Source of the DNA: Candidatus Blackburnbacteria bacterium RIFCSPHIGHO2_01_FULL_43_15b
GTDB lineage: Bacteria > Patescibacteriota > Microgenomatia > UBA8517 > UBA10165
Direction of reading: 5' to 3'
Assembly: GCA_001816385.1 (NCBI GenBank)
Contig: MHBW01000005.1
Coordinates: 27,585 to 67,761 of the forward strand
DNA: 40,177 nt
Part shown: piece by piece, positions 2 through 37,517 of the stretch
How positions within the stretch are numbered: the stretch's first letter is position 1
How the letters are laid out: each line of letters begins with the position of its first letter
The notes under the pieces: model-generated
Database searches by the model: none
What the model was told of the DNA's origin: nothing
The model's input: the letters and a program-made list of their open reading frames with translations, nothing else
Program-made: the position numbers and the translations under genes

Positions 2-1513
2 TTCTTGCCTTTATCTAAGGCAATCACTTTTTTTGCACCCGATTATTATGGCAATCATTCAACTCAAAATTATTGGGGTCCCCAGGATTACACTTCCAAT
101 ACAGGTTTTGTGGGGATAGTGCCTACAGTTTTTGCAAGTTTAGCGGTTTGTCTTTGGAAAACCAGACGTGAGGTGAAGTTTCTGTTTGTCCTGCTGTTTG
201 CATCTTTAATACTTGCTTTTCCTACTCCCGTCTCTATTTTTTTCTGGAAAAGCGGCTGGTTTGGTTTAAACGCCGCATCGGCTCACAGGTCGCTGGTTCT
301 TTTTAATTTGAGCGTGGCGCTCCTTGTAGGCTTTGGTGCGGACACCTTTTGGGAAAAAAAGGCGGCTGTGGTGAAAGCTTATATTGTTCCTTCATTAACG
401 ATCGTGGGATTTTTTATTTTTACTCTGGCGGCGTGGCGTTTGTCCGATGTAAGCTCGCCTGCATATGCTCATTCCAAAGTTGGTTTACGTAACTTGATTT
501 GGCCTGGAGCAGTTTTAGTTAGTTCCTTTTTGCTGCTGTGGTGGGGTAATCGCAGAACAAATTTGAGGCGCCAAGTCGCTTTTGGGCTGGTGTTATTAGT
601 AGCACTTGCTGAACTTTTCAGATTCGGGTGGAAATTTACACCCTTTTCCCCCCGCAATATAGTTTTTCCCACGACTCCAGTTTTAGATTATTTACAGAAT
701 CAGGAGAAACCTTTCCGCACAACTGGGTCTAGGGTTATTCCAATTAACATGCGAATGCCTTATAAAATCGAAACCATGGAAGGTTATGATGCAGTTTATC
801 CTCTGGAAATCTCCCAATTTATTGCAGCAATAACTAGCAAAAAGAGTGGAACAGCGCCCGTTGGCAGATATGGCACGATCGGAGACGAAACGGAAAGAGT
901 TTTAGATCTGGTGAGCGTAAAGTACGATGTGGTTGTAAAAAGAAACAAAGAAAATCAACCCGATATTAAAGGCGTTATCCCTGCTTATTTTGATCAAAAA
1001 CAATTCCCAATTGTATTTGAAGATAGGTCAGTTGCGATTTTAGAAAATAAAAACGTTTTGCCAAGAGCTTTCATGGTTTATGACTATGAAAGCTCAAGTG
1101 GGCCGAAAACTTTAGATAAAATGCTGAGTGCGGACTTTCCACAAGACAAAAAGATTCTTTTGGAAGATAGCCCAAGCTTAAAAATAGAAAAAGGCGGGAG
1201 CAGTCAAATTCTGTACACAGTTTATAAAGAAACAGAAAGTGAGTTGGGTGTAAGTACAAACCAAAATGGCCTACTGTTTATATCTGATACCTTTTACCCA
1301 GGATGGAAAGCATATGTTGATGGCGTAGAAAAAAAGATACTGCAGGCAGATTACGCCTTCCGCGCTGTAGAAGTTCCCAAGGGGACACATGAAGTGAAGT
1401 TTAGCTATAAGCCGGAATCTTTCTTTCTTGGGTTATGGGCAGCTGGAGTATCTTTTTTTATATTGGCCTTATGGCTGGGTATCAATTGCCTTGGCAACCG
1501 ACCCAAGGAGTAG
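2..1513 (+). CDS. YfhO-family membrane protein, probable GT-C glycosyltransferase (5' truncated by window edge)
   Basis: The reading frame is open to the left edge, so the start lies outside the window; the TTG at 5 is just an internal codon. About 500 residues remain. The first half is a run of hydrophobic segments. The second half is a soluble, probably extracytoplasmic part that closes with the YfhO signature YPGWKAYVDG (about 1291-1320), then VPKGTHEVKFSYKPESF and one last membrane helix. YfhO-type proteins are polytopic and thought to move sugars from polyprenyl-phosphate donors onto surface polymers; B. subtilis YfhO acts in lipoteichoic acid glycosylation. The PGW motif recurs at the C-termini of the proteins at 16150 and 19783. 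It begins the visible part of the glycan operon and is followed 23 bases later by a GT39-like gene. Family assignment is firm; the sugar and acceptor are unknown. Confidence 0.88.
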   Translation, partial: FLPLSKAITFFAPDYYGNHSTQNYWGPQDYTSNTGFVGIVPTVFASLAVCLWKTRREVKFLFVLLFASLILAFPTPVSIFFWKSGWFGLNAASAHRSLVLFNLSVALLVGFGADTFWEKKAAVVKAYIVPSLTIVGFFIFTLAAWRLSDVSSPAYAHSKVGLRNLIWPGAVLVSSFLLLWWGNRRTNLRRQVAFGLVLLVALAELFRFGWKFTPFSPRNIVFPTTPVLDYLQNQEKPFRTTGSRVIPINMRMPYKIETMEGYDAVYPLEISQFIAAITSKKSGTAPVGRYGTIGDETERVLDLVSVKYDVVVKRNKENQPDIKGVIPAYFDQKQFPIVFEDRSVAILENKNVLPRAFMVYDYESSSGPKTLDKMLSADFPQDKKILLEDSPSLKIEKGGSSQILYTVYKETESELGVSTNQNGLLFISDTFYPGWKAYVDGVEKKILQADYAFRAVEVPKGTHEVKFSYKPESFFLGLWAAGVSFFILALWLGINCLGNRPKE

Positions 1514-1536
1514 ATATACTTAGGTTTGAGTAGCTA

Positions 1537-3069
1537 ATGAAAAAACCTGTGCTTGCTCTGCTTTTGGTGATTTTTTCTGCCGCCTATTTTTTGCGTGTTT
1601 TATATCTTCCACAACAAGCTTTAACGTTTGGCTATGACCAGGCGCGTGATGCTTATTCTGCCCAACAAATTCTCAATGGTCACTTAAAAATTCAAGGACC
1701 ACCGGCTTCAACCCCTGGTTTAAATCATGGTGTTTTGTATTATTACTTTTTGGCCCCCGGATATTTGATAGGCAAGGGGAGTCCAATCGTGACGGCTTAT
1801 TGGACAGCACTTTGGAACGCGCTGACTGTTTTTATAGTTTTTATTTTGGGATGGAAAATGACCAAAAGTCGATTCTCAGCGCTTTTGTCGGCAGTTCTTT
1901 TTGGTATTTCTTTCGAAGCAATTCAATACGCAATTTGGCTGTCAAATCCAATGATGGGTGTGTGGCTCGTTCCACTAATATACTTGGGGTTATGGACTTG
2001 GGTCAAAGAAAAAAAATGGTGGGCTCCAATTCTATGTGGTTTGGCTTTGGGTTTTTCTGTGCAAGCTGAGATTTTTTTGGTCTACCACTTACCCCCTATT
2101 TTACTTTGGCTATTTGTGGGTCGAAAAAATGTTAAACGTTCTGATCTCTTCAAATTCTCAGGAGCATTTTTGCTGGCCATTTCGACGATGCTTTTGTCGG
2201 AAGTGAAATTCGGATTTCAAGCTTTGAAAGGAATCTCGGCTTTGTTGAATGTACAGGATAGTGTTGTTTTATCAAGGGGCTTAGGAGATTACATCGTTCT
2301 CTATTTAAATCAGATAGGTAAGGTTTTTGCGTATTCGTCTTATCCAGGCAATGTTGGATACGGTGGTGTGTTGGTTTTATTAATTATTATCATTGCGCTT
2401 CTTAATTGGAACAAAAAACAAACAATTTCCTGGCAGCCTTTTTTGGCCACTTGGCTTTTTAGTCATATCTTGGTTGTTTCAGTTGGCGGAACAAGCACGC
2501 CATTTTTGAATGTCGGATTTGCCCCGGCCATTGCCCTTGTGATTGGCATTTCATTTACTTTGTGGTGGAAACAAGGGAAGCGGGTATTGGTTCTTGCTTT
2601 AATGCTGTTAATTTTTATTGGCAATTCGTCCCGAATTGTAAAAGAAAACCCTCACGGACAGACAATTTTCTCAATCCAAAAAGACATGACACTTAAAAAC
2701 CAACTTGCGGCTATTGATTACACTTATCAAGCAGCAGGCACTAAAAACTTTAGCATCAACACAATCACTAGTCCTCTTTGGATAAATATCGTTTGGACTT
2801 ATCTTTATAAATGGCATGGGGAGAGAAGTTATGGTTTTGTGCCTGCCTGGCACGGACAAGACCAGGTGGGTCAGCTTGATACACTTGTTCATATTGACGA
2901 ACCTTCTGACACGTTTTTCTTAATCCAGGAACCCTTGCAAGGGATACCAGGGCTTTTTGTAGAAGACACTCTTGGTCAGGAGAATGGAAGGTCTAGGGTT
3001 GTTGAAGAAAAGCACTTTGGGCAAATTGTTGTACAAAAGAGGGCAAGAGAGGTAGTTAGTGCAAAATGA
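1537..3069 (+). CDS. GT39/PMT-like membrane glycosyltransferase, DQ variant
   Basis: 510 residues, with an N-terminal membrane helix, many further hydrophobic segments to about residue 370 and a soluble C-terminal tail. Straight after helix 1 is GYDQARDAYSAQQI (D34), where GT39/ArnT-type enzymes keep the catalytic loop acidic residue. Here the usual DE pair is DQ, which sets it apart from the DE paralogues downstream. As in the family, it probably uses a polyprenyl-phosphate sugar on the outer face of the membrane. The ATG at 1537 has no clear Shine-Dalgarno but fits the start of helix 1. The 3' end overlaps the next gene by ATGA. Membership of the PMT-like superfamily is secure; substrate is not predictable. 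Confidence 0.87.
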   Translation: MKKPVLALLLVIFSAAYFLRVLYLPQQALTFGYDQARDAYSAQQILNGHLKIQGPPASTPGLNHGVLYYYFLAPGYLIGKGSPIVTAYWTALWNALTVFIVFILGWKMTKSRFSALLSAVLFGISFEAIQYAIWLSNPMMGVWLVPLIYLGLWTWVKEKKWWAPILCGLALGFSVQAEIFLVYHLPPILLWLFVGRKNVKRSDLFKFSGAFLLAISTMLLSEVKFGFQALKGISALLNVQDSVVLSRGLGDYIVLYLNQIGKVFAYSSYPGNVGYGGVLVLLIIIIALLNWNKKQTISWQPFLATWLFSHILVVSVGGTSTPFLNVGFAPAIALVIGISFTLWWKQGKRVLVLALMLLIFIGNSSRIVKENPHGQTIFSIQKDMTLKNQLAAIDYTYQAAGTKNFSINTITSPLWINIVWTYLYKWHGERSYGFVPAWHGQDQVGQLDTLVHIDEPSDTFFLIQEPLQGIPGLFVEDTLGQENGRSRVVEEKHFGQIVVQKRAREVVSAK

Positions 3070-3719
3070 ACTCTCATTTGCTTGCTCGCGCTGCCCAGCG
3101 TCACAAACTTGTTCCGCCTGATCATTATGCCAGGTCAATAAAGCAAAGTTTCTTGCATAAATTTTGGCATACACGCAGATTTACTCAAATAGGGAAGATG
3201 ATAGAACCTAGTGGCGGCAAGGTATTGGATATTGGCTCGGCAGATGGAACTTTCACTAAAGTTATTGTGGAGAAATCGAAAGCTGATGGAGTAATTGGCA
3301 TTGATGTGTTGCCCGGCTCTGTGTCTTACGCAAAACGAAGGTTTGCGCGCAGTAAAGTAGTCTCTTTTAGAGTAGCTGATGCTCACGAACTTCCTTTTTT
3401 AGACAAGAGTTTTGATGCGATATTTTGTTTAGAAACTCTAGAACACGTTGAAGACCCGTTAAAAGCAGCTTGCGAGATGTTTAGGGTTTTGAAAGAGGAC
3501 GGATATGCAGTAGTCCTAGTGCCAAACGAAAATTTTTTGTTTAAGACCCTTTGGCCGATTTGGCTAATGGGTCCTGGAAAAATATGGCGAGGGACTCACA
3601 TTCAAGATTTGTCTGCAGAGGAGATAACGGAGATTCTTAAGAGGAGTGGGTTTACAATAAAAGAAACGAGAAAGTTCTTGTGTGGCATGCTGCAAGCAGT
3701 GAAAGTAGCCAAAGAATAG
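3066..3719 (+). CDS. Class I SAM-dependent methyltransferase (Methyltransf_11 type)
   Basis: 217 residues, soluble. Motif I is VLDIGSADG (53-61), the acidic end of strand 2 is IGID (77-80), followed by ADAHELPF (104-111) and LETLEHVEDP (122-131), the usual order for a Methyltransf_11/UbiE-like Rossmann enzyme. The start overlaps the preceding stop as ATGA, indicating translational coupling. Its place between a GT39 gene and GT2 genes suggests it methylates a sugar or lipid-linked glycan, perhaps as a cap, but that is inference. A 30-40 residue basic N-terminus precedes the fold. There is no membrane segment. Confidence 0.88.
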   Translation: MNSHLLARAAQRHKLVPPDHYARSIKQSFLHKFWHTRRFTQIGKMIEPSGGKVLDIGSADGTFTKVIVEKSKADGVIGIDVLPGSVSYAKRRFARSKVVSFRVADAHELPFLDKSFDAIFCLETLEHVEDPLKAACEMFRVLKEDGYAVVLVPNENFLFKTLWPIWLMGPGKIWRGTHIQDLSAEEITEILKRSGFTIKETRKFLCGMLQAVKVAKE

Positions 3720-3723
3720 TTAT

Positions 3724-4593
3724 ATGAAAACGGCAGCAATTATTCCCAACTGGCAAGGAAGAAAGTTACTTGAAAAAAACTTACCCTCTGTTTTAAAGAT
3801 TGGGTTTGATGAAATTATTGTTGTTGATGACGCATCAACGGATGACGGTGTCGCTTTTTTAACAGAACACTTCCCTACTGTAAAGATTGTGCGACACAAA
3901 AAGAATCAAGGGTTTTCGTCTACCGTTAATGACGGCGTTGCCGCAACTTCTGCTGATATAGTGTTTCTCCTGAATTCTGATGTGGTTCCGGAAAAAAATA
4001 TTTTGCGTTATGTATTAACGCACTTTGAAGATAAGGAAGTCTTCGGTGTCTCTTTGCGAGAGAAAGGTTATTCATATGCAGTTCCTAAAATTGAGAATGG
4101 ATTCATTGGGCACCAGATGGGATCAGAGACTGATAAACCTCACAATACTTTTTGGATTAGTGGAGGCTCAGGCGCTTTCCGCAAGAGTTATTGGGAAAAG
4201 TTGGGAGGGCTAGATACGATGTTTAACCCTTTTTATTGGGAGGATGTAGATTTATCTTATCGTGCGCTTAAAAGAGGATGGAAATTGCTTTGGGAACCTA
4301 AAGCAATTGTAGAACACAGACATGAATCCACAATAAACCTGAAGTATTTCTCGGCCCGATATTTAAACTACGTAAAAGAGAGAAACCAACTTTTGCTTTG
4401 TTGGAAGAACTTAAACTTAGGGTGGATAGTGAGCAAACACATCCCTGGATTATTGTGGAGATTGCGCCATCCGGGTTATATTGTGCCAGTTCTTTGGACA
4501 CTAATGAAATTGCCGCAAGTTATTGTGCGACGGATACAAGAAGCAAAGGAGGTCAAAGTTACAGATGAAGAAGTTTTTCAAAGATTCCAATAA
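3724..4593 (+). CDS. GT2 family glycosyltransferase (rhamnosyltransferase-like)
   Basis: 289 residues with a GT-A fold. Visible motifs are VDDASTD (34-40), NQGFS (61-65), the nucleotide/metal site NSD (84-86, the NSD/NPD version of DxD), GGSGAFRK (147-154) and the catalytic acidic block EDVDLSYR (173-180), as in WcaE/rhamnosyltransferase-like GT2 proteins. It likely transfers a sugar from a nucleotide donor to a lipid-linked acceptor at the inner membrane face. The C-terminal 70 residues are basic and amphipathic, compatible with membrane association. The gap to the previous stop is 4 bases. The C-terminus overlaps the next gene by 29 bases and carries that gene's ribosome-binding site. Confidence 0.9.
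   Translation: MKTAAIIPNWQGRKLLEKNLPSVLKIGFDEIIVVDDASTDDGVAFLTEHFPTVKIVRHKKNQGFSSTVNDGVAATSADIVFLLNSDVVPEKNILRYVLTHFEDKEVFGVSLREKGYSYAVPKIENGFIGHQMGSETDKPHNTFWISGGSGAFRKSYWEKLGGLDTMFNPFYWEDVDLSYRALKRGWKLLWEPKAIVEHRHESTINLKYFSARYLNYVKERNQLLLCWKNLNLGWIVSKHIPGLLWRLRHPGYIVPVLWTLMKLPQVIVRRIQEAKEVKVTDEEVFQRFQ
4545..4552 (+). promoter_or_regulatory. Shine-Dalgarno site deciding the start at 4565
   Basis: AAAGGAGG lies inside the end of the preceding GT2 gene, 12 bases before ATG 4565. It is the clearest ribosome-binding site in the window and argues for 4565 rather than the upstream in-frame codon at 4523. Confidence 0.65.
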
Positions 4594-5863
4594 TAGATTG
4601 CAAAAAATCGGTGTAGTTAAAGTTGCAATAACAATAGTGATACTGCATATACTTTTGGCCATTCCAGTTCATAGTAATGACTTGGAATTAGCAAAGATTT
4701 GGGGGATTTACGCTAAAGAGTTTGGCTTCTCCGGTTATTATGACTTTTTAAACTTTGGTAATTATGCCAGGCCTGAGTATCCCCCATTGGCAACTATTCT
4801 TTTCTGGTTTATGAGGATTATCTGGCAGATGATTTTTTCCATCTTCTGGCAAATAAATACAGCAATTCCTCTTTTCCCGTCTAAGCTTATACCCTGGCTA
4901 GAAGGAGATGGATATATTTTTATCTTGAAAATTCCTGGAATATTAGCAAACTTTGGGGTAGGACTGGTTATTTATAGATTTTTAAAGTTGAACTTTAATT
5001 CTAGAAAAGCCTTAGGCGGTGCGTTGTTGTATTGGTTAAACCCGGCTGCTGTTTATGTTTCTTCTTTGTGGGGTCAGATAGATGGGATAATAATTTTACT
5101 AAGTTTTCTTGCCATAGTTTTTATTCTGCAGGGGAAAAGCACTTTTGGAGCTCTGTTTTTTATTGCGTCCATTATGACAAAAGCTACCATGCTAGTTCTA
5201 TTCCCAATCTTGGTATTTAAGGTTTTAATTGAAAAAAGATATTTCTTGCTTTTGCGAGACCTGGTAATATCGGTACTTTTTGCTCTGGTTGTGGCATATC
5301 CTTTCACTAGAGAAAACCCCTTAAGTTGGCTATTAAAGAATTACTTGAATAAATTTTTAACTGTAGCTGCTCAGTTGCCTTTCATTCAGTTGAGGGCTTA
5401 TAATTTCTGGACACTTTTAACAGGTTTTAATTTTGTTCCTGACGCTGATCTTTTTGGGGGTATTAGTTTGGCGTTTTGGGCAAGGTCGCTTTCGCTTTTA
5501 ATATTTTTAGGTCTTTTTATTCTCTTGTGCCGCAAAAAAGAAGTGTGGGGAGCTTCCTGTCTTTTTATTTTTGCATCCTTTTTATTCTTACCTCGGATTC
5601 ACGAAAGATATTTGTTGCCAATCTTCCCATTCCTATTAGTTTTCTCATTTTATCAACCAAAAATTCGTCCCGTTTACTATCTTGTTTCTGTTGTGTCGTT
5701 GGCTAATTTATATGCAGCGTGGCAGGTTCCGTATAGCTTAGTGGCAACCTTTTTATCAACTGATCTTGTAGCAAGAATACTATCTTTGTTGCTTTTGACC
5801 TCTTTCCTTTTTGTGTTAATTGTTTACAAAAATTTGCCTGCATATGCAAAAAAGAAAAGTTGA
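4565..5863 (+). CDS. GT87/PIG-M-like membrane mannosyltransferase homologue
   Basis: 432 residues from ATG 4565, chosen because AAAGGAGG precedes it; an in-frame codon at 4523 would add 14 polar residues. Helix 1 is followed by HSNDLELAKIW (D39), the loop-1 acidic residue. Later come LKIPGILANFG, then LNPAAVYVSSLWGQIDG with the WGQxD motif typical of GT87 and PIG-M-like enzymes, and HERYLLPIFPFL near the C-terminus. The same blocks occur in the genes at 11711 and 18555, making a three-member subfamily. Such proteins use polyprenyl-phosphate sugars (mannose in PimE and PIG-M) at the outer membrane face. The sugar used here is unknown. Confidence 0.85.
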   Translation: MKKFFKDSNNRLQKIGVVKVAITIVILHILLAIPVHSNDLELAKIWGIYAKEFGFSGYYDFLNFGNYARPEYPPLATILFWFMRIIWQMIFSIFWQINTAIPLFPSKLIPWLEGDGYIFILKIPGILANFGVGLVIYRFLKLNFNSRKALGGALLYWLNPAAVYVSSLWGQIDGIIILLSFLAIVFILQGKSTFGALFFIASIMTKATMLVLFPILVFKVLIEKRYFLLLRDLVISVLFALVVAYPFTRENPLSWLLKNYLNKFLTVAAQLPFIQLRAYNFWTLLTGFNFVPDADLFGGISLAFWARSLSLLIFLGLFILLCRKKEVWGASCLFIFASFLFLPRIHERYLLPIFPFLLVFSFYQPKIRPVYYLVSVVSLANLYAAWQVPYSLVATFLSTDLVARILSLLLLTSFLFVLIVYKNLPAYAKKKS

Positions 5864-6680
5864 ATTATCCATAATTATTCTTAATTACAACACGGGGGAT
5901 ATTTTCTCCAAATGTGTTGACTCGGTATTGCGGGCGACCGAAAACCTTCAGAGCCCCCATTCAGAGCTTATTCTTTTAGATAATGCATCGACTGATAATT
6001 CTTTTAAGGTTCCCAAAAAAGAAAGGGTTATTGGGATTCAAAACGGAAGCAATTTAGGATTCGCAAGAGGTTGTAATCGTGGAATCAGGGAAGCTAAAGG
6101 TAAGTATGTGCTTCTTCTTAACCCCGATACGGTAGTTATAAAAGATGCCATCCAAAAGTTGTTGGATTTTGCCAAAGCTTGTCCAGATGCCGGGGCTGTG
6201 GGGCCAAAGTTGCTAAATCCAGATGGCACAACCCAACCTTCCGCTTTTTACCTGCCCACTCTTTGGGGAGCAATAAAAGAATTTTGGTTGGGTCAAAAGG
6301 GCATCTACTCTAAGTACATTCCCAAAAAAAGGCCGGTGGAATCTTTGGTTGCGGTGGAAGCGCTCGTTATGGCCGCATTTTTGCTAACACCACGGGCTTT
6401 GAAGAAAGTGGGTTTTTTAAATGAGAAGTATTTTATGTATTTTGAGGACTTAGACTATTGCAGAAATTTAAAGAGTGCCGGTTTAAAAGTTTACTATCTG
6501 TCGGAAGCAGAAGTAATTCATTATCATGGAGTAAGTGGTAAGAACGTAGCCTCCCAAGAAAACCAATGGCGACGGCTTATCCCATCAAGTAAGATTTACC
6601 ATGGGACACTAACGCACAATCTTATCAATTTCGTTATTTGGTCAGGACAAAAATGGCAAAGAGTACTGGATGGAAGATAG
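5844..6680 (+). CDS. GT2 family glycosyltransferase (rhamnosyltransferase-like)
   Basis: 278 residues from ATG 5844, which starts right before the first beta strand; a TTG at 5820 in frame is less likely. Motifs are LDNASTD (45-51), NLGFARGCNRG (70-80), NPD (93-95) for nucleotide-sugar/metal binding, and EDLDYCRN (201-208) near the catalytic base, as in RfbF/WbbL-type rhamnosyltransferases. It is cytosolic or membrane-peripheral and probably extends the lipid-linked precursor before export. It overlaps the preceding gene by 20 bases and the following by 28. With the GT2 at 3724 it flanks a GT87-like gene, so inner-face and outer-face transferases are interleaved. Confidence 0.9.
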   Translation: MQKRKVELSIIILNYNTGDIFSKCVDSVLRATENLQSPHSELILLDNASTDNSFKVPKKERVIGIQNGSNLGFARGCNRGIREAKGKYVLLLNPDTVVIKDAIQKLLDFAKACPDAGAVGPKLLNPDGTTQPSAFYLPTLWGAIKEFWLGQKGIYSKYIPKKRPVESLVAVEALVMAAFLLTPRALKKVGFLNEKYFMYFEDLDYCRNLKSAGLKVYYLSEAEVIHYHGVSGKNVASQENQWRRLIPSSKIYHGTLTHNLINFVIWSGQKWQRVLDGR

Positions 6681-9975: not shown

Positions 9976-9977
9976 AT

Positions 9978-12976: not shown

Positions 12977-12985
12977 CCTGTCATT

Positions 12986-14467: not shown

Positions 14468-14471
14468 AACT

Positions 14472-14480
14472 TGATACAAT
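14472..14480 (+). promoter_or_regulatory. Possible internal extended -10 promoter element
   Basis: TGATACAAT fits an extended -10 (TGnTATAAT) with one mismatch and lies 6 bases before ATG 14487. No convincing -35 was found. A transcript starting here would be nearly leaderless. Chance occurrence in AT-rich DNA is quite possible. Confidence 0.25.
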
Positions 14481-14486
14481 GTATAT

Positions 14487-24782: not shown

Positions 24783-24784
24783 TC

Positions 24785-26407: not shown

Positions 26408-26409
26408 TT

Positions 26410-27276
26410 ATGAGCAAAAAATTGTCTGTGGTTCTGGCCACATTTAACGAAGAAGAGAATATTGGTGCTTGTTTGGAATCATGCAAGAACATTGCTTCAG
26501 AGTTTGTTATTGTTGACGGAAGCTCGGCAGACAGGACCAGAGAAGTAGCTGAAGGTTTCGGGGCAAAAGTTATAAAAACACAAAATCACCCCAACTTTCA
26601 TATCAATAAGCAAAAAGCAATTGACGCGGCGAAGGGAGAGTGGATTTTGCAAATGGACGCGGACGAGCGCGTCAGCCCGGACTTGGCTCGAGAAATAAAA
26701 TATGTAATTGAGTTGGATTCTGCAAAGGCGGAGAAGTATCAGGAGGATTTGTCGCAGAAGGAATTATTTTTAAGACACCTTAGGATTTTGGAAAAAAGAG
26801 ATGGGCAGATTGGGACTGATAAAAGGGAATATGTTGCCTACTTTCTTCCCCGCTTAAATTATTTTTTGGGAAAATATTTGAGATATGGAGGCGTATACCC
26901 CGATGGGGTCATCAGACTTATTAAAAATGGCAAAGCGTATTTGCCGGCAAAAGATGTTCATGAACAGATGGAGGTTGGTGGACGAGTCGGTTGGTTGCAA
27001 AGTCCGTTATATCATGTTGATTCCCCCACTTTTGCTCGATATCTTGCAAGAAACAATCGATATATCGAGTTAATAAGAGCACAAATGGTTAAGGAGCGTT
27101 TGGAAAAAGGTGTGCTTACACTTTTAAACTATATGCTAGTTAAACCTGCCAGCTGGTTTTTAGTAACCCAAATCCGCCACAAAGGAATTTTAGACGGATA
27201 TCAAGGAATTGTTTTCTCATTTTTTTCAGCATTAAGGTTCCCTCGGGCATACTGGAGATACCTTAACAACAAATAA
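26410..27276 (+). CDS. GT2 family glycosyltransferase, WaaE/KdtX-like
   Basis: 288 residues. Motifs are TFNEEENI (11-18), VDGSSADRT (35-43), the metal-binding DADER (83-87), and RLIKNG with KDVHEQMEV downstream, as in the beta-1,4-glucosyltransferase WaaE-like branch of GT2. Compared with what I know of the family, there is an extra charged segment at about 100-140 (rich in K, E, Q and R), probably a helical insertion. The C-terminus (VKPASWFLVTQI, then IVFSFFSALRF) could sit on the membrane. It is cytosolic, presumably acting on the lipid-linked glycan core. It marks the change from the GT-C block to the mixed transferase/export block, and its TAA stop overlaps the next ATG by one base. Confidence 0.9.
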   Translation: MSKKLSVVLATFNEEENIGACLESCKNIASEFVIVDGSSADRTREVAEGFGAKVIKTQNHPNFHINKQKAIDAAKGEWILQMDADERVSPDLAREIKYVIELDSAKAEKYQEDLSQKELFLRHLRILEKRDGQIGTDKREYVAYFLPRLNYFLGKYLRYGGVYPDGVIRLIKNGKAYLPAKDVHEQMEVGGRVGWLQSPLYHVDSPTFARYLARNNRYIELIRAQMVKERLEKGVLTLLNYMLVKPASWFLVTQIRHKGILDGYQGIVFSFFSALRFPRAYWRYLNNK

Positions 27277-28307
27277 TGCGCGTTTTTCTCGATTCAAATC
27301 CCACAATACCAGGTCACACGGTGCGCGGCATGGGTCGCTATGCGAGCCAACTTTTGCAGGCCATGAAAGGCCACAAGAATGTCCAATTAGTGGGGAAAAA
27401 TGACAAGCCAGAGATTGCTCATCACCCCTTCTTTGACCTTTTCTTTAATACTTTGCATGAGAGAGGAAATGTGCCAACTGTCGTTACAGTACACGACACC
27501 CACCCCATTATTTATCCTGAGCACTTTCCTGTAGGAATTCGCGGAAAGTTGAAATTTGTCCTCCAGAAAAAAAGGTTGCAAAAAGCTGACGCGATTATTG
27601 TTAATACAGAAACTACTAAAAAAGACGTGGTGCTGTTTTTAGATATTTCTGCAGACAAAATTTTTGTAACTCACTTTGCTGCAAGCGGTTCTTGTAAACT
27701 TATCACCCATCACCAATCACTCCTCACCGTCTGCAAGAAGTACGACCTGCCTGCAAGATTCATACTTTATGTTGGTGATATTAATTACAACAAAAATATT
27801 CCAGGACTTATACGTGCATTTTCTCTAGTTACTCATCACTCATCGCTCACCACTCATCTTGCTCTGGTAGGGAAAGCCTTCGAAGGTGAAACCAACGAGG
27901 CAGAAGAAATACGCAAATTAATTAAGGAATTGCAAATTGAAGACAAGGTGCATATATTGGGTTTTGTTCCGGATGAAGATTTAGTAAAGATTTATAATTT
28001 AGCAGAGGTTTATTGCCAACCCTCATTTTACGAAGGTTTTGGTTTTCCTGTTCTTGAAGCAATGGCTTGCGGCACACCTGTCGTTGCCGGGAGAACACAA
28101 GCTTTAGTAGAAATTGGGGAAGGAGCAGCTCTGTTCGTGGATCCAAAAAATGTGCAAGATGTGGCGCGAGGTATCGAAAGAGTCATAAGTGATAGCAATT
28201 TGAGGAAAGGTTTGATTGCAGCCGGACTTAAGAAAGCAAAAGAATTTGATTGGAGAAAAACCGCTTATAAAACCGTTAATGTTTACAAAAAAGTTCTTGG
28301 TGAATAA
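27276..28307 (+). CDS. GT4 family glycosyltransferase (MtfB/mannosyltransferase-like) with two repeat insertions
   Basis: 343 residues, GT-B fold. The N-terminal domain has GMGRYASQLL (18-27) and VTVHDTHP (70-77). The C-terminal domain starts at ILYVGDINYNKNIPGLIRAF (163-182) and has the donor-site motif EGFGFPVLE (E253, E261) followed by AMACGTPVV. Two loops contain repeat-coded inserts, LITHHQSLLT (142-151) and VTHHSSLTTH (185-194), from degenerate ATCACTC-type heptamers. They fall in the interdomain linker and just before the strand LALVG, places where family members vary, so function is probably kept. It starts on the A of the preceding TAA and overlaps the next gene by 29 bases. Confidence 0.9.
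   Translation: MRVFLDSNPTIPGHTVRGMGRYASQLLQAMKGHKNVQLVGKNDKPEIAHHPFFDLFFNTLHERGNVPTVVTVHDTHPIIYPEHFPVGIRGKLKFVLQKKRLQKADAIIVNTETTKKDVVLFLDISADKIFVTHFAASGSCKLITHHQSLLTVCKKYDLPARFILYVGDINYNKNIPGLIRAFSLVTHHSSLTTHLALVGKAFEGETNEAEEIRKLIKELQIEDKVHILGFVPDEDLVKIYNLAEVYCQPSFYEGFGFPVLEAMACGTPVVAGRTQALVEIGEGAALFVDPKNVQDVARGIERVISDSNLRKGLIAAGLKKAKEFDWRKTAYKTVNVYKKVLGE
27702..27729 (+). repeat. In-gene degenerate heptamer repeat, ATCACTC family, 4 copies
   Basis: ATCACCC ATCACCA ATCACTC CTCACCG, coding ITHHQSLLT in the interdomain linker of the GT4 gene at 27276. Confidence 0.7.
27831..27858 (+). repeat. In-gene degenerate heptamer repeat, ATCACTC family, 4 copies
   Basis: ACTCATC ACTCATC GCTCACC ACTCATC, a phase-shifted version of ATCACTC, coding THHSSLTTH in a loop before the beta strand LALVG of the GT4 gene at 27276. 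Confidence 0.78.
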
Positions 28308-29448
28308 AAATACTGTTTCCATTCTTCTACTTTTTCTAGCCTGGCGGGTTTGGATTACAGTTTTTGCTCTGTTGGGGATTGCCTATCTTCCTTTGGCAAG
28401 CAGAAACTTTTTAGGCGGCAGTTTTGATAATTATTTAGAAAGTCCTTTGTTTTGGGGCTGGAGCAATTTTGATGGCGAGCACTACATTGCAATTGCACAA
28501 AATGGTTATAAAGCGCTCGAACACTCTTTTTTCCCACTTTTCCCGCTGATTTTGCATTTGCTTGCACCCGAAGGAATAGAGAAAATCGCGTGGGCGGGTT
28601 TGTTAGTCTCTAATACATTTTTTTTAGCAGACCTCTTTTTGCTTTGGAAGTTGGTAAGACTTGATTATTCTGAAAAAGTTGCCTGGTGGTCTTTAGTTTC
28701 TTTAGTTTCTTTCCCAACGTCATTTTTTTTTGCTTCCACATACACAGGATCACTTTTCCTATTTTTGGCACTGCTTAGTTTTTTATTGGCAAGGAATGGC
28801 AAATGGATAAGCAGTGGTTTTGCAGGAGGATTGGCCTCAGCTACTAGAGTTTTCGGAGTTGCGCTAGCTCCTGCTTTGTTGGTTGAATGGTGGCTGCAAT
28901 TTAAATCTAGGAAGCTCTCTTTTCCTAAAATCTTATTAGTTATAACAGTATTTTTCTTGAGCTTGTCAGGCCTTGTTGTGTATATGTTTTACCTTTACAA
29001 AACAACAGGTAGCCCATTCACTTTTTATAATGAATTATCTCCCTACGGCGAGCAGCGGCAGGTAGGCAAGTTAATTCTATTCCCACAAGTTTTCTGGCGA
29101 TATTTTAAAATGATTGCAACAGTGGACAGGAGCAGTCCAATATATAGCACAACCTTGATCGAATTTTTCTCTTCTGTGTTGGTCTTGTTCTTGCTTGTCG
29201 TTGGTTTTATGAAGAAATTAAGGCCCTCTTATTTAGTATTAATTTTCACCGGGTATATACTTTCAACCATTACCGGAAGCTTTAGTTCTTTACCCAGATA
29301 TATTTTGGTGGTCTTCCCCCTGTTTACCCTCTTGGGTGAGATACTATTTTCCTTGCGAGTTCAACTGAAAATAGCCACCATAACGATTTCTGTTTTGCTT
29401 TTAACTTTAGAAACTATGCTCTTTGTAAGGGGTTACTGGGTGGGATGA
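28279..29448 (+). CDS. PIG-V-like (GT76-type) membrane mannosyltransferase homologue
   Basis: 389 residues if started at ATG 28279. A GTG at 28300, overlapping the preceding stop, is a good alternative, and 28216 is too far upstream. The diagnostic block is WSNFDGEHYIAIAQNGY (D65), the W(D)GxHYxxIAxxGY signature of PIG-V-like transferases, after helix 1. FFPLFPLILHLL follows, as in the family. About ten membrane segments; SSLPRYILVVFPLF near the C-terminus matches the conserved SxxRY motif. Eukaryotic PIG-V adds the second mannose of GPI from dolichyl-phosphate-mannose; bacterial relatives are mostly uncharacterised. It sits between a GT4 gene and the flippase, and its stop overlaps the next start by ATGA. 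Confidence 0.86.
   Translation: MFTKKFLVNKNTVSILLLFLAWRVWITVFALLGIAYLPLASRNFLGGSFDNYLESPLFWGWSNFDGEHYIAIAQNGYKALEHSFFPLFPLILHLLAPEGIEKIAWAGLLVSNTFFLADLFLLWKLVRLDYSEKVAWWSLVSLVSFPTSFFFASTYTGSLFLFLALLSFLLARNGKWISSGFAGGLASATRVFGVALAPALLVEWWLQFKSRKLSFPKILLVITVFFLSLSGLVVYMFYLYKTTGSPFTFYNELSPYGEQRQVGKLILFPQVFWRYFKMIATVDRSSPIYSTTLIEFFSSVLVLFLLVVGFMKKLRPSYLVLIFTGYILSTITGSFSSLPRYILVVFPLFTLLGEILFSLRVQLKIATITISVLLLTLETMLFVRGYWVG
28690..28712 (+). repeat. In-gene nonamer tandem repeat TCTTTAGTT, 2.6 copies
   Basis: Two exact nonamers plus TCTTT, coding SLVSLVSF in a membrane segment of the PIG-V-like gene. Confidence 0.65.
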
Positions 29449-30710
29449 AAACATTGATAAATTATTTTAAAGCCTCTTTTAAAAATCCGCTTTTGATGGG
29501 AAGTTTTGTGATGGTTGTCGGAACGAATTTATACAGCACCGGGCAATTTTTATACCACTCTATAGCTCTTAGGGTTTTGGGCGAAGCTTATTATGGAGAC
29601 TTGGCCGCTATTATTTCGTTGTTGGGGATTGTAGGAATTTTTCAATTAGCATTTAATCTGACAATTGTAAAATTCGTTGCAGGACACAACAGAAAGGAAG
29701 AACTCCAAAACTTTAGCAGTTGGATTAATTGGTGGAGTATCTTAATTGGTCTTGGTATGGGGTTAGTGTTATTGTCGATGTCTCCTCTCCTGGCTGCTTT
29801 TCTAAAGTTACACCAACCCTCTTCCATTTACTTATTACCAGTTATCGTAGTGCTTGGTACGGTGCTTAGCGCTAACAGGTCAATATTACAAGGGCTCCTT
29901 CGTTTCAATCAGCTTGTAGCTAGTCTGATGTCGGAGATGCTGCTTAAAATAATGCTAACTATTGTTTTAGTGTGGTTAAGCTATGCAATTTTTGGTGCCA
30001 TGGTGGCCTTGTTGGTGGGAGTATTGGTTTCGTACGGCATTACGAGAGTTTTTTTGAAAGACGTGATTGTAAGAAAACGTGGCGAAAGGCCGAGCATAGC
30101 TCCACTAATAATGTTTTCATTGCCCGTTTTTATACAAGGTGCAGCGTTAACTTCCATGTATTCAGCAGACATCCTTTTGGTAAAACACTTCTTTTCCGCG
30201 TATGAATCAGGAGTTTACGCGTCCGTGGCAGCATTGGGACGAATAGCTTTTTTTGTATCTACGCCAATATCGGCAGTAATGTTTCCCATGATATCTCGAC
30301 GCCATGCAGAATCGCAGCCATACAAAGATATTCTCCTCTTGAGTATTTTGGGAACTTTTATTCTGGCTGCTGCTACTGTCCTTGCGTTTAGGTTTTCCCC
30401 CCAAATCTTTCTAGCTCTCTTTTCGGGACATGTACTTAAAGAGAGTGTTGGGCTGTTGTGGTGGTTTTCCGCATTTGCTGGCTTCTTGTCTGTGGCCAGT
30501 CTCTTAGTACAGTTCTATCTTTCTGTAGGCAAAGTTAAGATGACTTGGTTTTTTGCTATAGCAGCTTTGGGACAAGCGATAGCAATCTGGTTTATTCATC
30601 CTGACTTGTTGAGAGTTATTCAAATATCTCTTGTCGTGACGGCTTTACTGGCATTTTCGCTTTCGTTATACTTACTTTATCATCAGAGATGGCTGTATCA
30701 CAAAAGATGA
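29445..30710 (+). CDS. Wzx-like lipid-linked oligosaccharide flippase (MOP/polysaccharide biosynthesis superfamily)
   Basis: 421 residues, almost wholly hydrophobic with about twelve helices. The start SFVMVVGTNLYSTGQFLYH and LRVLGEAYYGDLAAI follow the MOP-superfamily N-terminal pattern in which helix 1 leads into a GxxxYG-type loop. The C-terminal half repeats it (PVFIQGAALTSMYSADILLVKHFFSA, then AGVYASVAALGRIAFFVSTP-like residues). Such proteins flip undecaprenyl-linked oligosaccharides to the outer face. Its place between the inner-face GT genes and the polyprenyl-phosphate-sugar synthase suggests it exports the core that the GT-C enzymes then extend. It is coupled on both sides by ATGA. 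Confidence 0.87.
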   Translation: MKTLINYFKASFKNPLLMGSFVMVVGTNLYSTGQFLYHSIALRVLGEAYYGDLAAIISLLGIVGIFQLAFNLTIVKFVAGHNRKEELQNFSSWINWWSILIGLGMGLVLLSMSPLLAAFLKLHQPSSIYLLPVIVVLGTVLSANRSILQGLLRFNQLVASLMSEMLLKIMLTIVLVWLSYAIFGAMVALLVGVLVSYGITRVFLKDVIVRKRGERPSIAPLIMFSLPVFIQGAALTSMYSADILLVKHFFSAYESGVYASVAALGRIAFFVSTPISAVMFPMISRRHAESQPYKDILLLSILGTFILAAATVLAFRFSPQIFLALFSGHVLKESVGLLWWFSAFAGFLSVASLLVQFYLSVGKVKMTWFFAIAALGQAIAIWFIHPDLLRVIQISLVVTALLAFSLSLYLLYHQRWLYHKR

Positions 30711-31513
30711 ATAACTCCAAGCTTCTATCTGTAATAGTGCCTGCGTACAAACAGGAGCAGACAATCGAAGAAGATCTGAAAAACATTGATCGAGTACTTG
30801 CAGAAGGATTAAAAGGGTCTAAATACGAAATAATTTGTGTGGTAGATGGTATCTTAGACACAACATATCAAAGAGCCAAGAGGGTAAAATCCCCGCGAAT
30901 AAAAGTGCTTGCATACGAGAATAATCAAGGGAAAGGTTATGCGGTTAGATACGGTTTTGCTCACTCCAAAGGTGATGTTGTATCGTTTTTGGATGCCGGA
31001 ATGGATATCAGCCCCAAAGGCATGATGATGCTGATGGCGCATATGGAATGGTATAACGCAGATATCGTAGTTGGGTCAAAGCGACATCCAGTTTCGAAAG
31101 TTAACTATCCTTTTATTAGACACGTTCTCAGTATTGGGTACCATGCTCTTGCTAAAGTTTTGTTTGGTCTTTATTTGACAGATACTCAAAGTGGAATAAA
31201 AGTGTTTAGAAGAAAAGTGGTACAAGTTATTCTCCCGCGCCTGTTGGTTAAAAGGTACGCAATGGACATTGAAATGTTGGCTGTGGCAAACCATCTTGGT
31301 TACAAGAGAATTTATGAAGCGCCCATTGAAGTTAAATTTAATAAAAAAACCAGTGCCATAAGCTGGAAAACGGCAATTGATATGGCTATCGATACTTTGG
31401 CAGTTTTTTATCGTTTGAGAATCCTGCGCTATTATGAAGACAAAAACAGGGACCACTGGATAGTAGATCCCAAGCTAAAGATCTTGTTAGCCAGAAGTCC
31501 TGGCGCTTCCTAA
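30707..31513 (+). CDS. GT2 polyprenyl-phosphate-sugar synthase-like protein (DPM/ALG5 type) with altered active-site motifs
   Basis: 268 residues from ATG 30707, chosen because it forms an ATGA overlap with the flippase stop; ATG 30689 is in frame too. The layout is that of dolichyl-phosphate-mannose synthases: VPAYKQEQTI (11-20), NQGKGYAVRYGF (73-84), DTQSGIKVF (159-167) and MDIEM (186-190). The usual DDGSxD reads VDGILD (46-51) and the DAD metal motif reads DAGMD (96-100), so metal coordination may involve D100 or be impaired. No C-terminal GtrA-like membrane domain is present. It probably makes a polyprenyl-phosphate donor for the GT-C enzymes if active. The next gene follows after 12 bases. 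Confidence 0.88.
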   Translation: MNNSKLLSVIVPAYKQEQTIEEDLKNIDRVLAEGLKGSKYEIICVVDGILDTTYQRAKRVKSPRIKVLAYENNQGKGYAVRYGFAHSKGDVVSFLDAGMDISPKGMMMLMAHMEWYNADIVVGSKRHPVSKVNYPFIRHVLSIGYHALAKVLFGLYLTDTQSGIKVFRRKVVQVILPRLLVKRYAMDIEMLAVANHLGYKRIYEAPIEVKFNKKTSAISWKTAIDMAIDTLAVFYRLRILRYYEDKNRDHWIVDPKLKILLARSPGAS

Positions 31514-31525
31514 TCTCCCACTTTT

Positions 31526-32668
31526 ATGAATATTCTTGTACTTTCTTGGCGTGATCCAAAACACCCGATGGCGGGTGGAGCTGAACAAGTGATGCATGAG
31601 CACATGAAAGGATGGATCGCGGCAGGTCATAAAGTTACCTTTTTCTCATCTCGTTTTCCTGGCTCAAAACAAGAGGAAAAACTGGATGGTGTAGACATTG
31701 TTCGTCAAGGCAAAGATCTTTTTTTGGGAGTTCAATTGTCAGCTTTTTGGTGGTATTTGTTTGGGTCTCACGACAAATTTGATTTGGTTATTGATGAATT
31801 TCATGGAATCCCCTTTTTTACACCTCTTTATGTCAGAGTGCCAAAACTTGCTGTGTTGCAAGAAGTTGCAAGAGAAGTTTGGTGGCTTAACCCCCTGCCC
31901 AAACCCTTCAACTGGATAATAGGTTGGATTGGTTATACACTCGAACCTTTCTTATTTTTGTTCTATAGAGACATTCCTTTTATTAACAAAAGTGTCCCAT
32001 TTATGACCGGCTCCCAATCAGCCAAAGACGACCTTGCTAGAATGGGCATTAAATCAAATGATATAACTATAGTTCCACACGGAGTAATAATAGAAACACC
32101 TAGCAAGCTTCCGCCAAAAGAAAAGGAAAACACAATCGTTTTTTTGGGAGCTTTAACTCGCGACAAAGGCATAGAAGATGCGCTAAGAGCCTTTGCTATT
32201 CTGAGTAAAAATGGGAACGATAACCTTCTTTGGATAATTGGCGTCGGTATCTCAAATTATGTGACACATCTTAAAAAATTATCACGCAGACTGGGGATAG
32301 AAGGTAAAATTAAATTCTTCGGCTTTGTAAGCCAAAAAGAAAAATTTGAGCTCCTTGCTCGCGCCCATGTGCTTATAAACCCTTCTATCCGAGAAGGGTG
32401 GGGACTTGTAAACATTGAAGCAAACCGAATGGGAACTCCTGTTGTTGCTTACCGTTCTCCGGGCCTCGTAGATTCGGTAAAAGATGGTCAGAGCGGGGTA
32501 GTGTGTAAAGTTAACACCCCCGGAAATTTGAGCCGCGAAATAGAAAAAATACTCTCCAGTCCTCAAACCTATAAAACATTTCAATACGGATCCAGAAGAT
32601 GGGCGTCACAATTTAATTGGGAAAAATCTAAAAAACTAAGCCTTAAACTCTTGGAGAACATCAAATGA
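31526..32668 (+). CDS. GT4 family glycosyltransferase
   Basis: 380 residues, GT-B fold. The N-terminal GGAEQVMHEH (17-26) binds the acceptor side in related enzymes. The C-terminal domain begins at IVFLGALTRDKGIEDALRAF (about 204-223), and the donor-site motif is EGWGLVNIE (E290, E298) followed by ANRMGTPVVAY. Hydrophobic stretches at about 130-150 (WIIGWIGYTLEPFLFLF) suggest it docks to the membrane. It most likely adds a sugar from a nucleotide donor to the lipid-linked precursor. The start has no Shine-Dalgarno. Its 3' end contains GGAG for the next gene and overlaps it by ATGA. Confidence 0.9.
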   Translation: MNILVLSWRDPKHPMAGGAEQVMHEHMKGWIAAGHKVTFFSSRFPGSKQEEKLDGVDIVRQGKDLFLGVQLSAFWWYLFGSHDKFDLVIDEFHGIPFFTPLYVRVPKLAVLQEVAREVWWLNPLPKPFNWIIGWIGYTLEPFLFLFYRDIPFINKSVPFMTGSQSAKDDLARMGIKSNDITIVPHGVIIETPSKLPPKEKENTIVFLGALTRDKGIEDALRAFAILSKNGNDNLLWIIGVGISNYVTHLKKLSRRLGIEGKIKFFGFVSQKEKFELLARAHVLINPSIREGWGLVNIEANRMGTPVVAYRSPGLVDSVKDGQSGVVCKVNTPGNLSREIEKILSSPQTYKTFQYGSRRWASQFNWEKSKKLSLKLLENIK

Positions 32669-33579
32669 GATCTAAAAAAACCTTATCATCTATCTTTGTG
32701 CTTTTGGTTTTCTCTTTTCTGTTTTGGAAAATCTTTTCAGACTTCGATCAAGTTAAAAACGTAAATTGGCAACTTAGCAAAAAAAATTCGGTGTTACTAT
32801 TAATAGTTTTGCTAGCTGGGCCGTTTGTAAACGCATTATCCTGGCACCTCTACACAAAAGCGCTTGGTGGAGGCATTAACCTCATTGACAATATACGAAT
32901 CTGGACTCTTTCAAACGCCTCCCGATTTGTGCCGGGAAGCATATGGCAATATGCAGGAAGGGTTTATATGCTATCCCAAAAAGGGGTAAGCAAAACGTTT
33001 ACATCTACGGCACTTCTGCTGGAAGCTCTTTTCAATATCGGAATTGCAGGTGTAATTGTTTTGTTTGCATTACGTTTGTTTCCATTGGAGACCCCCGCAT
33101 TTATGCAGAAGAGTCTTGGGCCGCTTGTTTTATTAACATTCACTGTATTGATATTCTTTACAGGAAGCAGAATTAAAGTACTCGAGGGAGTAATAAAGCA
33201 AACTCTTAAAAGCGACGAAATAAAACTTAACAAGATACAAATCAGATGGGTTCCTGCAATATTGCTTAGCGTCTCAGTTCAATTTATTTTAACAGGGCTA
33301 GCACTTTGGCTTGTAGCCATGGGGTTAGGGATAGAAACACAAAGCAGTATTTTCTCTTTTGTCGGAATTTATGCTGCCTCTTGGCTTGTGGGATATCTTG
33401 CATTTCTGGCTCCATCTGGCTTAGGTATTAGAGAGGCCTCCATCGCTGGGCTGATGAGCCTTTATGCTCCACTTGCCCTAGGAAGTTTGATAGCAATTTT
33501 GTTTCGGCTTGCAACTCTTGTGAGCGAGGCAATAGTGGTTGCTGTTATTTTTGTGTTAACTAGAAAAAAGTCCCCTTGA
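32665..33579 (+). CDS. LPG_synthase_TM (UPF0104/AglD-MprF type) integral membrane protein
   Basis: 304 residues with about eight helices. RFVPGSIWQYAGRVYMLSQ (88-106) and PSGLGIREA (250-258) are the two conserved blocks of the LPG_synthase_TM family (PGxxW...GR and PGGxGxRE). The family includes the flippase part of MprF and archaeal AglD-associated membrane domains, and in glycan loci it is thought to move or recycle lipid carriers. No lysyl-transferase domain is attached. GGAG at 32653, eight bases upstream, is one of the few clear ribosome-binding sites. It overlaps neighbours by ATGA and TTGA. It may handle polyprenyl-phosphate sugar transport, which the GT-C array needs, but that is inference. 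Confidence 0.86.
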   Translation: MRSKKTLSSIFVLLVFSFLFWKIFSDFDQVKNVNWQLSKKNSVLLLIVLLAGPFVNALSWHLYTKALGGGINLIDNIRIWTLSNASRFVPGSIWQYAGRVYMLSQKGVSKTFTSTALLLEALFNIGIAGVIVLFALRLFPLETPAFMQKSLGPLVLLTFTVLIFFTGSRIKVLEGVIKQTLKSDEIKLNKIQIRWVPAILLSVSVQFILTGLALWLVAMGLGIETQSSIFSFVGIYAASWLVGYLAFLAPSGLGIREASIAGLMSLYAPLALGSLIAILFRLATLVSEAIVVAVIFVLTRKKSP

Positions 33580-34148
33580 ACTTATTCAACAGCACGTTTA
33601 TACTATTCAAACAAGTGAAGAAACTCTCAAGCCTCATAATAAGCGTACTATTTCTTTTTGCGACAATATTCCCCGCAAATGCACAAGAATTTGCAACATC
33701 TTTGGCCGATGTGCCAGTTGATTCATACACTCTTTTCTGGCCGCTCTCTCCGGGAAAAACAGAAGGCGATAGCCTTTATTCCTTAAAACTACTTAAAGAA
33801 AACGTTCTTGGCATATTTGCTTTTAATGAATCTGAAAAGGTTGATTACCAAGTAATGCTTGGCACAAAAAGGGTACTTGGGGCAGAAAAGCTTATTAAAG
33901 AGAATAAACCTGATATGGTAAAGAAAACCCTCAAGAGAGCGAGTAATAACTTTTCTCAAGCTCACAGTTTGGCCAAGTCTGCAGCAGACAGAGGAAAATT
34001 TAACGCAAGCAAGGTAAGAAGAGATAGGCTGATTAATGTAAAAATCTTAATTGACTTTCTGAAGACGTCTGCCTCAAGCGACTTAAGCTATGATCTTGAT
34101 ACGGCTAAGAACAATGCACAGAGATTGCTTGCTGACTATTTGCCCTAA
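33576..34148 (+). CDS. Secreted DUF5667-like protein
   Basis: 190 residues. The TTG at 33576 overlaps the previous stop (TTGA); a GTG at 33615 giving VKKLSSLII is an alternative start. Residues 15-36 form a signal peptide (KK, hydrophobic core, ANA|QE cleavage after about 36). The mature part begins with a PGKTEGDSLYSLKLLKENV segment, the P-x(n)-YxLK start seen in DUF5667, followed by a lysine/alanine-rich helical bundle (AEKLIKENKPDMVKKTLKRA). Its function is unknown. It is the last gene of the long operon, is presumably released to or anchored at the outside, and could bind the glycan or wall. No terminator hairpin is visible in the 18 bases before the convergent gene. Confidence 0.78.
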   Translation: MNLFNSTFILFKQVKKLSSLIISVLFLFATIFPANAQEFATSLADVPVDSYTLFWPLSPGKTEGDSLYSLKLLKENVLGIFAFNESEKVDYQVMLGTKRVLGAEKLIKENKPDMVKKTLKRASNNFSQAHSLAKSAADRGKFNASKVRRDRLINVKILIDFLKTSASSDLSYDLDTAKNNAQRLLADYLP

Positions 34149-34166
34149 GCATTGCTAATTGCAGAT

Positions 34167-36332: not shown

Positions 36333-36375
36333 GTCTGCACAAATAGGGCTTCGTAGTATCCGTAGACGTGGTGTT

Positions 36376-36492: not shown

Positions 36493-36497
36493 AGATA

Positions 36498-37505: not shown

Positions 37506-37517
37506 ATTAATGGAAAG

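Follow-up and report, generated by a model that had tools for sequence, protein, structure and literature searches.

A 40,177-nucleotide stretch of contig C5 from a Candidatus Blackburnbacteria genome (C5:27585-67761; here the window) carries 26 consecutive same-strand genes (g1 to g26, window positions 2 to 34148), 16 of which encode GT-C-type glycosyltransferases: nine GT39-like, three PIG-M/ALG6-like, three YfhO/PTPS_related, and one PIG-V-like. The locus probably represents a multi-component transmembrane glycosylation system on a much expanded scale, which would extend, branch, or decorate a lipid-linked surface glycan with polyprenyl-phosphate sugars. The chemistry is known, its scale unusual. 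A sequence-only reading of the window had proposed 26 genes on one strand with gaps of up to 23 bases, the four GT-C classes, and two more GT39 genes just past the run. The list of open reading frames (ORFs) with their translations confirmed the first, Pfam and profile-profile comparison the second, and the two additional genes are g27, on the minus strand, and g31, which is cut by the contig end.

Extent of the array

The genome (G000) comprises 904,670 bases in 35 contigs and is 96.8% complete, consistent with the small-genome host that had been presumed. Since the closest named relatives of a locus protein are metagenome-assembled genomes of Candidatus Daviesbacteria, Collierbacteria, and other Microgenomates, the source is a Microgenomates-type bacterium of the candidate phyla radiation (CPR). 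Gaps between genes of the run do not exceed 23 bp (the largest lies between g1 and g2), and the remaining junctions overlap by up to ~29 bp, given the ATG starts adopted for g5 (4565), g6 (5844), g7 (6653), g13 (16150), and g21 (28279). The run is as large as had been claimed, but its extent was underestimated: it begins near C5:17,894, ~9.7 kb upstream of the window, and five extra GT-C genes are found upstream of this start (C5:4604, 6525, 9031, 11330, and 12838). The 67.8-kb contig carries at least 23 GT-C genes, a count in which a split YfhO gene is taken once, the truncated g31 is included, and the C5:21380-23077 family, with a profile-profile score of just 40%, is omitted. The right edge of the window coincides with the end of contig C5, and its left edge is closely preceded by an assembly gap of 14 N. 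All array genes are full-length open frames except g1 and g31, which are interrupted by the assembly gap and the contig end, respectively.

GT-C identity of the membrane proteins

Pfam PMT or PMT_2 matches at or above the cutoff were obtained for g8, g9, g11, g12, g16, g17, g18, and g27, and YfhO/PTPS_related matches for g1, g13, and g15. Weak matches were given by g5 (ALG3, just above the cutoff) and g21 (PMT_2, below the cutoff), and Pfam found nothing in g2, g7, g10, and g14. Profile-profile comparison joined g7 and the g2 and g27 families to the GT39 set and g5, g14, and the g21 family to the g10 family at 95.3 to 100% (Table 1), versus just 0.1 to 7% for the flippase and most other polytopic families, which served as controls. 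Both g2 and g7 enter the GT39 class through this comparison only, not through Pfam. Searched by sequence against solved structures, the GT39 set gave weak matches to ArnT and Pmt1, and its assignment is backed by Pfam.

Structures were predicted for g10 and g15, while g5 and g14 were placed by profile. The g10-family profile (A1) matched the solved structures of glycosylphosphatidylinositol (GPI) mannosyltransferase 1 (E 5.6e-9) and ALG6 (E 3e-5). ALG6 was also the best Foldseek match (E 4.3e-7) of the g10 AlphaFold model (pLDDT, predicted local distance difference test, 93.2), which further matched GPI mannosyltransferase I bound to dolichyl phosphate (Dol-P) mannose, GPI-transamidase subunit U, PglB, and ALG3; the first non-GT-C match appeared at a probability of 0.12. 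The g15 model (pLDDT 89.5) matched PglB, STT3, AftA, EmbA, AftD, and ArnT across most of the chain. Its strands 450-519 form a C-terminal beta domain, which probably accounts for partial glycosidase matches of ~100 columns. Because the YfhO/PTPS profile retrieved no solved structure from the PDB by sequence, the fold of that family rests on the g15 model. The predicted structures of g10 and g15 match GT-C enzymes, in agreement with the fold that had been proposed for the array. For g5, g10, and g14, a candidate function is transfer of mannose or glucose from a polyprenyl-phosphate donor.

The earlier claim that all 16 proteins have an acidic residue in loop 1 was borne out in part. In the g10 family, loop-1 Asp26 is invariant across 26 sequences, including g5 and g14. 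In an alignment that includes g7, g8, g9, g11, g12, g16, g17, and g18 (g27 lies outside it, and the g2 motif YDQARD was read separately), E31 of the loop-1 DE is invariant and D30 nearly so; g7 carries Q where the other seven have the first D, and keeps the second acid. The assembly gap divides a YfhO gene of which g1 represents only the 3' part, so that its loop 1 lies upstream of the gap, outside the window.

Donor synthases and flippases of the locus

Four GT2 proteins or domains of the contig were compared with solved structures, with g6 as a control. The protein at C5:1570-2865, which also carries a GtrA/DPMS membrane domain (GtrA/DPMS_TM), matched dolichol monophosphate mannose synthase (DPMS) over 358 residues (E 8e-31). 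DPMS was likewise the top match of C5:5774-6547 and g23, and the top matches of the N-terminal GT2 domain of g13 were GtrB (sll0501), ArnC, and DPMS, so that g13 joins a donor-synthase-type domain to a GT-C. The control g6 matched ordinary GT2s only. C5:10547-11302 is a fifth candidate, for which such synthases are the nearest NCBIfam families, with scores far below their cutoffs. By these matches, the locus encodes about five donor synthases of the DPMS/GtrB type. It also encodes two MOP-type flippases, g22 and C5:17894-19381, which would move lipid-linked sugars. The presence of both in the same locus supports the outer-face chemistry envisaged from the window alone.

A g13-type fusion is also present in G003 (829 aa), and a second kind, in G006 and G008, has a g6-like GT2 placed N-terminal to a YfhO/PTPS domain, the same GT-C type as in g13. 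The latter two genomes also encode proteins of ~1,025 aa with 21 to 22 predicted membrane segments (G006:C1:391762-394833 and G008:C1:340752-343829), which group with the YfhO/PTPS family and are possibly double-length GT-Cs.

Conservation across genera

Reciprocal best hits with G001, a genome of another genus, are collinear in 41 of 42 cases, 18 of them GT-C genes. The corresponding figures are 31 of 33 for G005 and, in another family, 20 of 24 for G006 and 18 of 18 for G008. GT-C orthologues in other genera are intact, ~50 to 65% identical, and kept in order; the median identity to G001 is 57% for GT-C orthologues and 61% for neighboring genes. Decay or scattering of the array, named beforehand as evidence that would speak against an assembly line, is rejected on the basis of these intact, collinear orthologues.

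In a tree of 33 GT39 proteins, g9, g11, g12, g17, and g18 are each joined to their other-genus orthologues in a clade with 100/100 support, as is g16 to that of G001 (100/99 once G005 is added). The stems of these clades mostly exceed the divergence within them, and by this tree the GT39 paralogues diverged before the genera did. Recent tandem duplication was rejected for these six genes, given their cross-genus clades. Collinear orthologues and separate orthologous lineages across genera argue for maintained, distinct GT-C functions; conserved lineages of this kind are expected if each paralogue adds a specific residue, as had been suggested. Matches to g18 with 49 to 69% identity are found in 30 relatives; contig ends truncate some of them, and most, where the context is visible, lie within tandem GT39 arrays. 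Eleven relatives have matches to g10 at ≥47% identity. In G006, the one complete relative fetched, 20 GT-C genes fall within 60 kb, compared with a mean of 6.8 and a maximum of 11 after shuffling. The array is therefore not a product of chance.

Not all genes share this history. In the GT39 tree, g7 and g8 sit at weak forks with long branches, that of g7 being very long, and g7, g8, g13, and g14 have no orthologues in G001 or G005, where only distant best hits were found. The g7-g8 pair also stands side by side in the distant genome G031, and g13-g14-type genes are adjacent in G003 and G006. Because the four genes without G001 and G005 orthologues recur elsewhere as neighboring pairs, the two pairs seem to behave as modules. 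The G031 homologue of g7 has EE at the GT39 DE position, where g7 itself has QE, and g7 may serve g8 as a modified or non-catalytic partner. DNA at window positions 33735-39515 is 78 to 93% identical to G001 (93% over g28), part of it also being 85% identical in G004, whereas the aligning operon DNA is mostly ~65% identical. This far greater similarity suggests that a kinase/methyltransferase/GT4 cassette was recently exchanged between genera.

Distribution of the expansion

The 57 genomes analyzed (G000 and its order-level relatives) have 4 to 36 PMT_2 matches each, with a median of 21, and 53 of them have YfhO/PTPS homologues. Since all 57 fall in this range, the expansion belongs to the lineage, and the rarity of such arrays implied by the sequence-only reading does not hold at the genome level. 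In an even draw across the phylum, the 12 genomes of the class have at least 15 to 24 PMT_2 matches, counts that are a floor for some of them, compared with a median of 3 among the other 131 genomes; seven of those likewise reach at least 15. The expansion therefore characterizes the class rather than this one genome. By a conservative count, 31 of the 758 predicted ORFs of G006 are GT-Cs, which corresponds to ~4% of its genes and 6.3% of its bases; the census was lowered from 35 to 31 by removing a five-member polytopic family with Wzy_C-positive members. Counting every polytopic neighbor as a GT-C was rejected because of those members.

Proposed pathway and alternative explanations

In the pathway that we consider probable, cytosolic GT4 and GT2 enzymes would begin a lipid-linked glycan, which Wzx-type flippases would carry outward. 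The DPMS/GtrB-type GT2s of the locus would charge polyprenyl phosphate with sugars, and on the outer side of the membrane the GT-C battery would draw on these donors to lengthen and branch the glycan. One specific linkage each would be the task of most conserved GT-Cs, an assignment that is as conjectural as the sugars, the linkages, and the identity of the acceptor. Sequence and structure prediction reveal the GT-C folds, loop-1 acids, donor-synthase type, flippases, collinearity, and orthologous lineages; we infer the direction of transfer, the division of labor, a shared acceptor, and a cell-surface glycan as the product. Transfer to an extracytoplasmic acceptor is likewise predicted.

Several points weigh against this pathway. 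The protein g7 is without the usual first loop-1 acid, G000 has no match to the STT3/PglB family (PF02516) at E≤0.001, and no Wzy or ligase gene was identified within the run. Moreover, a glycan with 16 specific residues would be highly elaborate for a bacterium with a genome of 0.9 Mb, and several GT-Cs may for that reason serve other acceptors. That the GT-Cs as a whole modify several acceptors (pilins, S-layer or other surface proteins, lipids) instead of one glycan, some acting as direct PMT-like protein O-glycosyltransferases, is a rather unlikely alternative. GT39 is the protein O-mannosyltransferase family, with Pmt1 a weak profile match of the GT39 set, different GT-C subfamilies are present together, and another envelope-type locus, on contig C8, combines GT-Cs with a flippase and a Wzy_C protein. 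However, GT4, GT2, flippase, and methyltransferase genes are interspersed among the GT-C genes of a locus that is conserved in collinear order, an arrangement typical of a single polysaccharide or oligosaccharide pathway.

The modules described above are compatible with the single-glycan pathway as a refinement, in which a conserved core is combined with exchangeable gene pairs. They become a rival to it only if surface diversification (serotype-like, or for phage and partner recognition), with pairs gained and lost, is the main function of the array. The recurrence of g7-g8 and g13-g14-type pairs in other genomes in the absence of G001 and G005 orthologues, the high DNA identity to G001 at 33.7-39.5 kb relative to the operon, and the wide range of PMT_2 numbers among relatives all fit such a function, yet the retention of six GT39 paralogues and g10 as orthologues between genera is unexpected for a mainly variable array and makes it improbable. 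Many paralogues, together with the altered motif and very long branch of g7, might also be taken for decaying tandem duplicates without specific roles. Full-length frames throughout, broken only where the assembly is, paralogues older than the genera, and orthologues that remain intact and in the same order leave that explanation very little probability.

Returning to the proposed single-glycan pathway, its terminal step could be provided by Wzy_C-family proteins, as ligase, polymerase, or oligosaccharyltransferase. Such proteins are present in 18 of 18 genomes checked, with four matches in G000, none of them in the window. Wzy_C-domain proteins with open frames of ~640 to 740 aa (G000:C30:5955-6476 and relatives) occur in most of the 18 genomes. 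N-glycosylation based on STT3 was rejected: G000 has no STT3 match at E≤0.001, and the few weak matches in G004, G005, G007, and G011 coincide with or adjoin GT39 matches.

Other features of the window and the genome

The genes of the window are listed in Table 1. Upstream, within the run, a 687-aa protein (C5:19335-21398) is encoded between the flippase and C5:21380; it gave zero BLAST matches in the stretches fetched from five relatives. Two genes at L001:3099-4496 (C5), between conserved locus genes, resemble pyrE and pyrF by eye and may correspond to them; nothing equivalent to the pair occurs in the G001 and G005 stretches that were fetched. On contig C3, a second, small cluster (L067, G000:C3:30448-37487) encodes two GT-Cs, a WecA/MraY-like phosphotransferase, and a UbiA protein, and its relatives are clustered in G006. 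The UbiA protein scores just below the NCBIfam cutoff for decaprenyl-phosphate phosphoribosyltransferase, which hints at polyprenyl-phosphate pentose donors.

Table 1. Genes of the window, with predicted products and the matches on which they are based
Gene	Position	Strand	Predicted product	Evidence
g1	2..1513	+	YfhO-family GT-C, 3' part only	PF09586 E 9e-20; upstream half beyond N-run
g2	1537..3069	+	GT39-like GT-C, loop-1 motif YDQARD	Pfam none; profile-profile 99.1% to GT39 set
g3	3066..3719	+	S-adenosylmethionine-dependent methyltransferase	PF08241 E 1e-23
g4	3724..4593	+	GT2 glycosyltransferase (cytosolic)	PF00535 E 1e-19
g5	4565..5863	+	PIG-M/ALG3/GT87-like GT-C	PF05208 (ALG3) E 1.6e-5; 100% to g10 family
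g6	5844..6680	+	Ordinary (non-DPMS) GT2	PF00535; PDB matches to ordinary GT2 only
g7	6653..8320	+	Divergent GT39-like GT-C, loop-1 QE not DE	100% to GT39 set; alignment A2
g8	8317..9975	+	GT39-like GT-C	PF13231/PF02366; adjoins g7 here and in G031 (g8 52% identical)
g9	9978..11714	+	GT39-like GT-C	PF13231 E 6e-12; 100/100 orthologue clade
g10	11711..12976	+	PIG-M/ALG6-like GT-C, invariant loop-1 Asp26	A1 profile, AlphaFold, Foldseek
g11	12986..14467	+	GT39-like GT-C	PF13231 E 8e-11; 100/100 orthologue clade
g12	14487..16163	+	GT39-like GT-C	PF13231 E 3e-10; 100/100 orthologue clade
g13	16150..18558	+	Polyprenyl-phosphate-sugar synthase-type GT2 (~residues 1-250) fused to YfhO/PTPS_related GT-C	PF00535 + PF10131
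g14	18555..19793	+	PIG-M/GT87-like GT-C	99.9% to g10 family; adjoins g13-type gene in G003, G006
g15	19783..21435	+	YfhO/PTPS_related GT-C with C-terminal extracytoplasmic beta domain	PF09586; AlphaFold; Foldseek
g16	21425..23107	+	GT39-like GT-C; probable orthologue also in G006/G008	PF02366 E 5e-6; tree
g17	23091..24782	+	GT39-like GT-C	PF13231 E 6e-9; 100/100 orthologue clade
g18	24785..26407	+	GT39-like GT-C	PF13231 E 4.5e-9; 49-69% identical matches in 30 relatives
g19	26410..27276	+	GT2	PF00535
g20	27276..28307	+	GT4	PF00534 E 3e-37
g21	28279..29448	+	PIG-V-like GT-C	PMT_2 E 4e-4 (below cutoff); family 96.3% to g10 family
g22	29445..30710	+	Wzx/MOP-type flippase	PF01943 E 7e-19
g23	30689..31513	+	DPMS-type GT2 (polyprenyl-phosphate-sugar synthase)	PDB top match DPMS 5mlz E 9e-15
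g24	31526..32668	+	GT4	PF00534 E 1e-38
g25	32665..33579	+	LPG_synthase_TM-family membrane protein	PF03706 E 1e-19
g26	33576..34148	+	DUF5667 protein, final run gene	PF18915
g27	34167..36332	-	GT39-like GT-C	PF13231 E 5e-10; 95.3% to GT39 set
g28	36498..37505	+	GHMP sugar kinase, nearest HddA (heptose-7-phosphate kinase)	PF00288/PF08544; NF049969 E 1e-46, far below its cutoff
g29	37518..38297	+	Methyltransferase	PF08241
g30	38302..39528	+	GT4	PF00534 E 6e-39
g31	39512..40177	+	GT39-like GT-C resembling g27, cut by contig end	Top match is g27 orthologue of G001

Comparison with known systems and significance

Known multi-component systems, such as CsbB/GtcA/YfhO and GtrA/GtrB/Gtr, consist of a polyprenyl-phosphate-sugar synthase, a flippase, and a GT-C (PMC8035078, PMC11127046). 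The locus shares these three parts as well as YfhO and PMT_2 domains with them, but they have one of each, whereas contig C5 by itself carries at least 23 GT-Cs along with two flippases and some five synthases, and synthase and GT-C are fused in g13. In dolichol-linked oligosaccharide and GPI assembly (ALG3/6/8/9/10/12, PIG-M, PIG-V), to whose PIG-M and ALG6 the proteins g5, g10, and g14 are related by profile and g10 also by fold, the logic is shared: cytosolic steps are followed by flipping and by luminal GT-C steps with Dol-P sugars. Unlike that pathway, G000 has no STT3 match, and most GT-Cs of the locus are GT39- or YfhO-like. The eukaryotic pathway has fewer GT-Cs than this locus. Mycobacterial arabinan assembly (EmbA-C, AftA-D) also employs several distinct outer-face GT-Cs, and the g15 model matches AftA, AftD, and Emb. 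The UbiA protein close to decaprenyl-phosphate phosphoribosyltransferase here accompanies WecA-like and GT-C genes, but at another locus, on contig C3, and below the cutoff; pentofuranose donors are candidates for the window enzymes.

The closed Microgenomates Ch65 genome has 29 glycosyltransferase genes, a number called remarkable (PMC7143001). It is likewise glycosyltransferase-rich, and the passages found mention neither a GT-C array nor donor synthases nor a conserved locus. Families enriched in Microgenomates are mostly hypothetical, and many are membrane-located (PMC6744442). We found no account of this array in a literature search whose scope excluded subscription papers and preprints.

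It is tempting, and for now tentative, to propose that in Microgenomates an ALG-like assembly line on the outer face, conserved gene by gene between genera, produces a surface glycan that is large and branched. This line would be a main investment of a stripped-down genome, and its dedicated GT-C steps would outnumber those of the systems considered for comparison. If this is true, an entire CPR class would have as a core trait an elaborate surface glycan made outside the membrane, and that glycan would be a strong candidate for a role in attachment to partners and in interactions with phages. The locus also supplies many naturally diverged GT-Cs with matching donor synthases, among them g13 with its donor synthase joined to a likely partner GT-C, for studying what determines the sugar and acceptor specificity of GT-Cs. 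These stripped-down bacteria thus appear to devote an unusual share of their genome to a complex surface sugar coat.

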